Shown here piece after piece: positions 4,098 through 24,530 of a DNA stretch of 41,656 nt. Made by a program: the position numbers and the translations under genes. The notes beneath the pieces are model-generated. The model searched no databases. It saw only the letters and a list, made by a program, of their open reading frames with translations, and had not been told where the DNA came from. The stretch comes from Actinomycetes bacterium. GTDB lineage: Bacteria > Actinomycetota > Acidimicrobiia > Acidimicrobiales > Ilumatobacteraceae. The DNA lies in NCBI GenBank assembly GCA_014190095.1, contig BJFW01000005.1:11417-53072 (forward strand), read 5' to 3'. The number at the start of each line of letters is the position of its first letter. The first letter of the stretch is position 1.

Positions 4098-4514
4098 ATG
4101 TCTGAGCAAGTCATCAATGTGGCAAGTTCGCTCGCATTCATCGCAGCGCTCTCGGCAATGATCTGGTGGCTACGTTCGCGAGCAGGTCATTGGTCCTCCG
4201 AAGATGGCACCCGTTGTATTTGCCAGATGAAACTCGCCCTCACCGGTGCATCGCCGAAGTGGATTGAAGCCCGAATTGTGATTGACACCGAAAATGCAGT
4301 GGTGCTGTGCAAAACCCGTAGTAAGCGTGGTCGGGCGCTTCACGGAATGTGGAAGGTAATTGGCGTGCCTCATGCTTCGCACGTAGGTGCACCAGATTCG
4401 AGTATTCGCACCTACGCGCTATGCCGAACAAACGACAACGATGTGCTCGCAATGTTGCGAATTCCGCTTCACAGCAGAAGCGTCAGCGTGCTTGACGCTC
4501 TTCTTCCGCATTAG
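4098..4514 (+). CDS. Small membrane-anchored protein, possibly DUF2550-like
   Basis: A 138-residue protein with one N-terminal hydrophobic helix (about 6-27, ending in WWLRSRAGHW) and a soluble basic domain containing WIEARIVIDTENAVVLCKTR. The architecture and the W-x-x-A-R-(I/V) plus beta-strand pattern resemble DUF2550 proteins of Actinobacteria, but the resemblance is weak and was judged by eye. CATACT lies seven bases before the ATG with no Shine-Dalgarno. The last 4 bases overlap the convergent metX stop codon (4511-4514). Confidence 0.6.
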   Translation: MSEQVINVASSLAFIAALSAMIWWLRSRAGHWSSEDGTRCICQMKLALTGASPKWIEARIVIDTENAVVLCKTRSKRGRALHGMWKVIGVPHASHVGAPDSSIRTYALCRTNDNDVLAMLRIPLHSRSVSVLDALLPH

Positions 4515-5680
4515 AGCGTTCGTTCAAGAAACGCTTTGATTGGTGCGCCAACCTGATCAAAGTTGATCAGGAACGCATCATGACCGTGAGGCGAATCAAT
4601 CTCAACATACGTTGAATCGACACCCCTCTCGGTGAGCATCGAGTGAATCTGTTTCTGTTGGTACGTGGGATACAAAATGTCACTTGAAATACCCAGCACC
4701 AGCGTTGGGGCTTTGATGCGCGACATTGCATTGTCAAGCGTGCCACGACCACGAGCAATATCATGCAGGTCCATAGCTTTGCCGATGATGAGATAGCTGT
4801 TGGTGTCGAACCGACGAATGAGTCTGTCACCGTGATGATCGAGGTAACCCTCCACCTCAAATCTGTCCCACAAGCCAAGTCCGTTGTAGTCAACATCCAT
4901 ATCAACAAGTGCGCGACCGAAACGTTCGGTGAACACGTTGTCGCTGCGGAATGTGACTTGTGAGATCATGCGTGCAATTGCCAAGCCTTCCCATGGGCCT
5001 TCGCCAATTGCAGCGTCGTAATACTCACCATTGCGCCACTTTGGATCGAGGCGAATTGCTCGACGACCAATTGCACCCCACGCAATTTGCTGAGCCGTAG
5101 CTTGAGCACATGTTGCAATAGGAACAATGGTTTTCACACGATCGGGAAAGGTGACAGCCCATTCCAGTACTTGCATACCTCCCATTGACCCGCCAACAAC
5201 ACTGTGCCATTTGCGAATCCCGAGCATGTCAGTAAGTCGCACTTGCGCGCGCACCATGTCGCGAATAGTGATTACAGGAAAGCGAGAGGCGTACAACTGA
5301 CCATCTTCTGGGTGTGCCGTTGCAGGGCCAGTTGAACCCTGGCAACCACCAATGACATTGCTGCACACCACGAACCACTTATTGGTATCGATTGCTTTAC
5401 CAGGACCAACAACACCCTCCCACCAACCCGGTGTGGGGTGACCTTCTTCCGCAGCACCTGTGACGTGGCTATCGCCTGTCCATGCGTGACATATCAAAAT
5501 CGCATTTGATGCATCTGCATTCAGTGTTCCCCAAGTCTCGTACGCAATAGAAACATTGCTGAGAACTTTTCCACCGTCAAGCGCAAATGGGCGATCTTCA
5601 GGAAAGTGTGCGAACTTGCGACCGCCAACAGGCATGCCAGGAAACCAAGCTCCTGTTGCTGGATAATCATGTCGGGTCAT
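4511..5680 (-). CDS. metX: Homoserine O-acetyltransferase
   Basis: A 389-residue alpha/beta-hydrolase-fold enzyme that acetylates L-homoserine from acetyl-CoA as the first committed step of methionine synthesis. Motifs seen are LSNVSIAYETWGTLN, CHAWTGDSHVTG, GSTGP, the nucleophile elbow VGGSMGGMQ (Ser165 by this start), and SPHGHDAFL with the catalytic His near the C-terminus. The ATG at 5680 was chosen because AGAGGA sits 5 bases upstream and family alignment begins there; an 18-residue extension to 5734 is in frame but lies in the leader. The long leader contains a SAM-type riboswitch (5750-5844), which fits methionine control. The gene is convergent with the small membrane protein at 4098. 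Confidence 0.95.
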   Translation of the reverse strand: MTRHDYPATGAWFPGMPVGGRKFAHFPEDRPFALDGGKVLSNVSIAYETWGTLNADASNAILICHAWTGDSHVTGAAEEGHPTPGWWEGVVGPGKAIDTNKWFVVCSNVIGGCQGSTGPATAHPEDGQLYASRFPVITIRDMVRAQVRLTDMLGIRKWHSVVGGSMGGMQVLEWAVTFPDRVKTIVPIATCAQATAQQIAWGAIGRRAIRLDPKWRNGEYYDAAIGEGPWEGLAIARMISQVTFRSDNVFTERFGRALVDMDVDYNGLGLWDRFEVEGYLDHHGDRLIRRFDTNSYLIIGKAMDLHDIARGRGTLDNAMSRIKAPTLVLGISSDILYPTYQQKQIHSMLTERGVDSTYVEIDSPHGHDAFLINFDQVGAPIKAFLERTL

Positions 5681-5749
5681 ACATTTCCTCTGAAACGAAA
5701 TTAAGCGTTTTTGCAGTTCGTCACGCTCACCCAACTAAGCCAGCCCGTT

Positions 5750-5844
5750 GCTACGCCTGTTGGCGTAACCACATCTTTCGCATTTCGCGAAATGGCACCG
5801 TGGGAAAACCCGGTTGCCGGACCTGTTGGTCGCTCGTGATGTAC
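5750..5844 (-). promoter_or_regulatory. SAM-clan (SAM-I/SAM-IV-like) riboswitch upstream of metX
   Basis: Read on the minus strand, P1 pairs ACAUC (5842-5838) with GAUGU (5775-5771). P2 is GACC-AACA-GGUC (5831-5820). The conserved CGGCAACC (5819-5812) is followed by a GGG/CCC P3 hairpin, then GGUGCC (5799-5794). P4 is CAUUU-CGCG-AAAUG (5794-5781), and GAAAGAUG closes back into P1. CGGCAACC, GGUGCC and GAAAGAUG in this order are hallmarks of SAM-I/SAM-IV aptamers. The short P2 without a kink-turn and the extra hairpin UACGCC-AACA-GGCGUA just 3' of P1 (5767-5752) point to the SAM-IV or SAM-I/IV variant side. The position before metX supports sensing of S-adenosylmethionine. The expression platform is not resolved; there is no obvious U-tract terminator, so control of translation is more likely. 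Confidence 0.75.
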
Positions 5845-5962
5845 TACTTGCATTGCCCGCCCGACTGAGCGGCCGGGAAGGCTTTGCACAGGTCAGGCTA
5901 CCTGCCGATATCGTCAATTCAGCGCAGCGGGCTTTGTTGGCGCTGTTAGAGGTTGTTGGCGC

Positions 5963-24160: not shown

Positions 24161-24521
<361 letters not shown>

Positions 24522-24530
24522 GTCACTTAA

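Follow-up and report, generated by a model that had tools for sequence, protein, structure and literature searches.

The metX leader of a freshwater actinobacterium of the Ilumatobacteraceae carries a SAM-I/IV riboswitch that very probably lowers metX expression when S-adenosylmethionine (SAM) is plentiful. This reading is supported by a class-specific aptamer, a conserved core and a conserved position before metX, compensatory base pairing and the lack of an intrinsic terminator. SAM-sensing leaders of this clan repress methionine synthesis genes. The riboswitch is sound but not new, being ordinary both for the SAM-I/IV class and for the order.

We analysed a 41,656-nt stretch of the genome (hereinafter the window) and examined its metX leader with covariance models. 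Positions 5734–5847 of the minus strand score 43.8 bits with the SAM-I/IV riboswitch model of Rfam (RF01725; gathering score 41.1 bits); the E-value is 5e-4 when the whole window is searched and 4e-6 in a local stretch of 321 bases. SAM-I/IV, the type named in the first-pass annotation of the sequence, is the best match of its clan and the sole Rfam match listed in the 321-base stretch at E up to 10; one weaker, overlapping hit from its clan was omitted. Because the score lies just 2.7 bits above the gathering score, which counts against this explanation, we built a second covariance model from 27 leaders, all from genera other than its own. The out-of-genus model recovers the window site with 75.7 bits (E = 2.8e-15) and no other window match at E up to 10, and a genome-wide search returned no second SAM-I/IV copy, only the window site. 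Judged from these sequence comparisons, the fold at 5842–5750 on the minus strand is confirmed as a real and well-supported member of the SAM-I/IV class. The elements of the leader and its gene are as follows, all in window coordinates.

4511–5680, minus strand: metX, homoserine O-acetyltransferase, 389 aa (NCBIfam NF001209), start ATG at 5680
5682–5697, minus strand: predicted hairpin CGUUUC-AGAG-GAAAUG, overlapping the Shine-Dalgarno sequence AGAGGA (5686–5691), by energy prediction only
5725–5740, minus strand: conserved tail GCUUAGUUGGGUGAGC, a small hairpin whose stem pairs in most, not all, congeners
5750–5842, minus strand: SAM-I/IV aptamer, P1 to P5, from the RF01725 match at 5734–5847 and the out-of-genus covariance model
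5750–5769, minus strand: P5 hairpin GUUACGCC/GGCGUAGC, directly 3′ of P1, with 5 of 8 pairs changed on both sides within the genus
5771–5775, minus strand: P1 3′ strand GAUGU, pairing with ACAUC
5776–5792, minus strand: P4 hairpin UUUCG/CGAAA, with 5 of 5 pairs changed on both sides within the genus
5794–5818, minus strand: P3, with GCAACC/GGUGC as its core and UUUU as its loop (5805–5808)
5819–5833, minus strand: P2, GACC-AACA-GGUC: 4 bp closed by the AACA loop and, beyond a single bulged base, a further G-C pair; no internal loop
5838–5842, minus strand: P1 5′ strand ACAUC, pairing with 5771–5775

The P1–P4 fold, the 4-bp P2 with its AACA loop and the hairpin right after P1 that had been drawn in the first-pass annotation are thus borne out. 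P3 consists of GGC/GCC and CCG/CGG stems and an upper GG/CC stem and contains the AA/U internal loop that belongs to the binding core; the aptamer displays the core motifs GGCAACC, GGUGCC and GAAAGAUG. The GAG, GGCAACC, GGUGC and GAUG segments recur in the crystallised SAM-I/IV RNA (4L81; sequence printed in PMC5393176) and are nearly invariant among relatives.

The class definition used here is that of PMC6890682, PMC2864571 and PMC5393176. SAM-I/IV RNAs have an undivided P2 and a P4 and lack PK-1 (PMC6890682), and their P2 is described as being without an internal loop (PMC2864571). A kink-turn is therefore not expected in the window aptamer, and the earlier proposal that its compact, kink-turn-free layout is a reduced variant is refuted by the published definition of the class (PMC6890682, PMC2864571). 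The element scores over the cut-off, lacks PK-1, and shares with SAM-I/IV (RF01725; 4L81) the core strings AUCACGAG, GGCAACC and GGUGC, the undivided P2, the upper GG/CC stem of P3, P4, and P5 directly after P1. It differs from 4L81 in two respects: the crystallised RNA has a 7-nt P3 loop that forms PK-2, whereas the window P3 loop is 4 nt long, and the window tail contains a conserved AGUUGGGY element particular to its genus. The 4-nt P3 loop, absent from the first-pass annotation, is the real departure from the class.

The comparison of related metX leaders that had been proposed at the outset revealed compensatory changes in P2, P3, P4 and P5 among the Acidimicrobiia. Across 37 leaders of the order, standard pairs fill 92% of pair cells, compared with 83% in shuffles and 38–47% in slid controls, and changes on both sides of a pair occur in 102 pair cells against a shuffle mean of 30. 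P1 forms a standard pair in all aligned leaders of the order that have letters at those positions. Within the genus the core is fixed, and many compensatory changes fall in P4 and P5. Of 120 related genomes, 56 contain the element at a score above the cut-off, and a simple pattern finds it 5′ of metX in 67 of 80 loci; among the remaining loci, some are truncated and some visibly keep the core in a form that the pattern misses. The SAM-I/IV element precedes metX in most of the Acidimicrobiia metX loci examined.

These data bear on two other views of what the element is. The binding core is common to the whole SAM clan (PMC6890682), so that an RNA with this core could in principle be SAM-I (RF00162) or SAM-IV (RF00634) proper; the window element shares P1–P4 as well as the core with SAM-I, and with SAM-IV the core, P5 after P1 and a possible PK-2 strand adjoining the P3 3′ strand. 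Such an assignment is nevertheless very unlikely. The kink-turn and PK-1 of SAM-I are absent from the window RNA, in which P2 has no internal loop and no loop is free for PK-1, and a P5 is present. The SAM-IV layout, with P2 split into P2a and P2b, a PK-1 and no P4, is not matched either, as the window P2 is single and P4 is present and covaries; SAM-I/IV is moreover the best match of the clan. The proximity of the score to the Rfam cut-off would also suit a relic or a chance set of hairpins without regulatory function, but an invariant core, helices that covary in both the genus and the order, and 75.7 bits with the order-level model make this explanation extremely improbable. The assignment to SAM-I/IV is retained.

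In the window's subclade the P3 loop is UUUU, and 4 nt are too few for the usual PK-2 at its customary site. Distant Acidimicrobiia have a P3 loop and tail capable of PK-2 pairing, for instance CGGACAC with GUGUCCG in L127, and matched loop-tail pairs beat swapped ones over 29 clusters (p = 0.009 by energy and 0.004 by stem score, with two control segments reaching 0.03 by stem score). Within the genus of the window, a candidate PK-2 would join an invariant CCCA adjoining the P3 3′ strand to a tail UGGG (5730–5733) that is itself nearly invariant, following the arrangement described for SAM-IV, and an alternative candidate would join CCC to a nearer GGG; the distal UGGG or the proximal GGG gives 3–4 pairs. 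Covariation was sought in the genus for CCCA/UGGG and for CCC/GGG and was not found for either. As neither partner covaries, we claim neither pseudoknot.

The gene downstream is metX, the context given by the first-pass annotation: its product scores 490 bits against NF001209, for which the cut-off is 331. The start at ATG 5680 is backed by the protein and by relatives and congeners, and lies 69 nt from the end of the aptamer (end of P5). The TTG at 5734 given as the start in the open reading frame list, which lies inside the leader, was rejected on the evidence of the relatives and the protein. The relatives identified from protein sequence are mostly metagenome-assembled genomes of Ilumatobacteraceae and other Acidimicrobiia, and several isolate names suggest lakes. 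In one relative (L002), the element stands 5′ of a gene that, judged by eye, reads like metY. In the window, an out-of-frame AUG lies 4 bases before that of metX and begins a frame of five codons, AUG UAU GAC CCG ACA UGA (5684–5667, minus strand), which overlaps the metX start; close relatives have this AUGUAUG arrangement too.

For the switching itself, SAM would bind in the P1/P3 core and stabilise P1, and the SAM-bound leader would block translation initiation rather than transcription; in this genus, the best candidate for the strand signalling SAM binding is the conserved tail AGUUGGGY. The minus strand between the aptamer and metX contains no terminator-like site, in agreement with the initial remark that the leader has no clear intrinsic terminator. 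Some related genera have tails complementary to the Shine-Dalgarno sequence, such as GUCCUCCU/AGGAGGAC (L035), GAACUCC/GGAGUUC (L012) and UGUCCCU/AGGGACA (L006). Across clusters this complementarity is modest, with p = 0.008–0.022 in the swap test and a combined shuffle p of 0.006 compared with 0.03–0.19 for control segments. Together with the missing terminator, such tails in several related genera make translational repression the most likely mode of SAM control of metX. The window leader itself has no Shine-Dalgarno-complementary tail beyond chance, and the initiation region was not consistently more or less accessible when P1 was formed than when it was not.

Other SAM-clan switches act on termination, and SAM could here control transcription, by way of Rho or of a terminator that went unrecognised; as the minus-strand leader shows no terminator-like site and some related genera have Shine-Dalgarno complements, this is improbable. 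A different form of translational control was explored by modelling the same aptamer in two states: without SAM, the tail (5744–5713) would invade the 5′ half of the aptamer, and with SAM, the freed GUUGGGU would pair with metX codons 2–4 (ACCCGAC) and block initiation. Predicted energies favour the invaded fold by 6.5 kcal/mol for the transcript from 5847 to the AUG, P1 is predicted to be regained (probability 0.70) with the tail on codons 2–4 once codons 2–10 are added, and several clades have longer core-tail complements, for example AUCACGAGUG/CACUCGUGAU in L073. Against this, the window reaches p = 0.049 relative to shuffled tails, a preference that most close relatives do not share; control segments reach combined p values of 0.03–0.07 in the shuffle test; the codon pairing is no better than that of synonymous codings in nearly all congeners; and the predicted outcome varies with the assumed 5′ end of the transcript. 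We regard this two-state scheme as doubtful and have not adopted it, as it is suggestive in some clades while the controls (p = 0.03–0.07) and most close relatives are unsupportive. It is likewise unlikely that the genus has lost the usual loop-tail pseudoknot and constitutes a SAM-I/IV subtype with its own platform, in which the tail AGUUGGGY would be shared between the aptamer without SAM and the metX initiation region with SAM. Translational repression by a SAM-bound aptamer remains the preferred reading.

In five leaders (L073, L075, L092, L013 and L028), the tails complement the P1 5′ strand, J1/2 or P2 over 8–11 bases, as with UGUUCAUCAGG/CCUGAUGAGCG in L092, and the tails of L092 and L028 also complement the ribosome-binding region. 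These five SAM-I/IV leaders are candidate shared-strand translational switches.

SAM-I/IV-like matches that do not precede metX were observed at L046:424–534, L015:1501–1609 and L007:308–424 (genomes G046, G063 and G065), each of which contains a second match as well. They have a different P3 loop, of the GAGCC...GGCCAC type, and the next reading frame at L046 and L007 encodes some 70 residues of no obvious identity. Elsewhere in the window, 24162–24523 on the plus strand is a bacterial class A RNase P RNA (201 bits), an ordinary gene.

The assignment puts a known SAM-sensing RNA in charge of methionine synthesis in freshwater Ilumatobacteraceae, with SAM-I/IV as the usual metX leader among the Acidimicrobiia loci examined. 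The collected leaders, some of which have clear Shine-Dalgarno complements, could help to resolve translational control by SAM-I/IV riboswitches.
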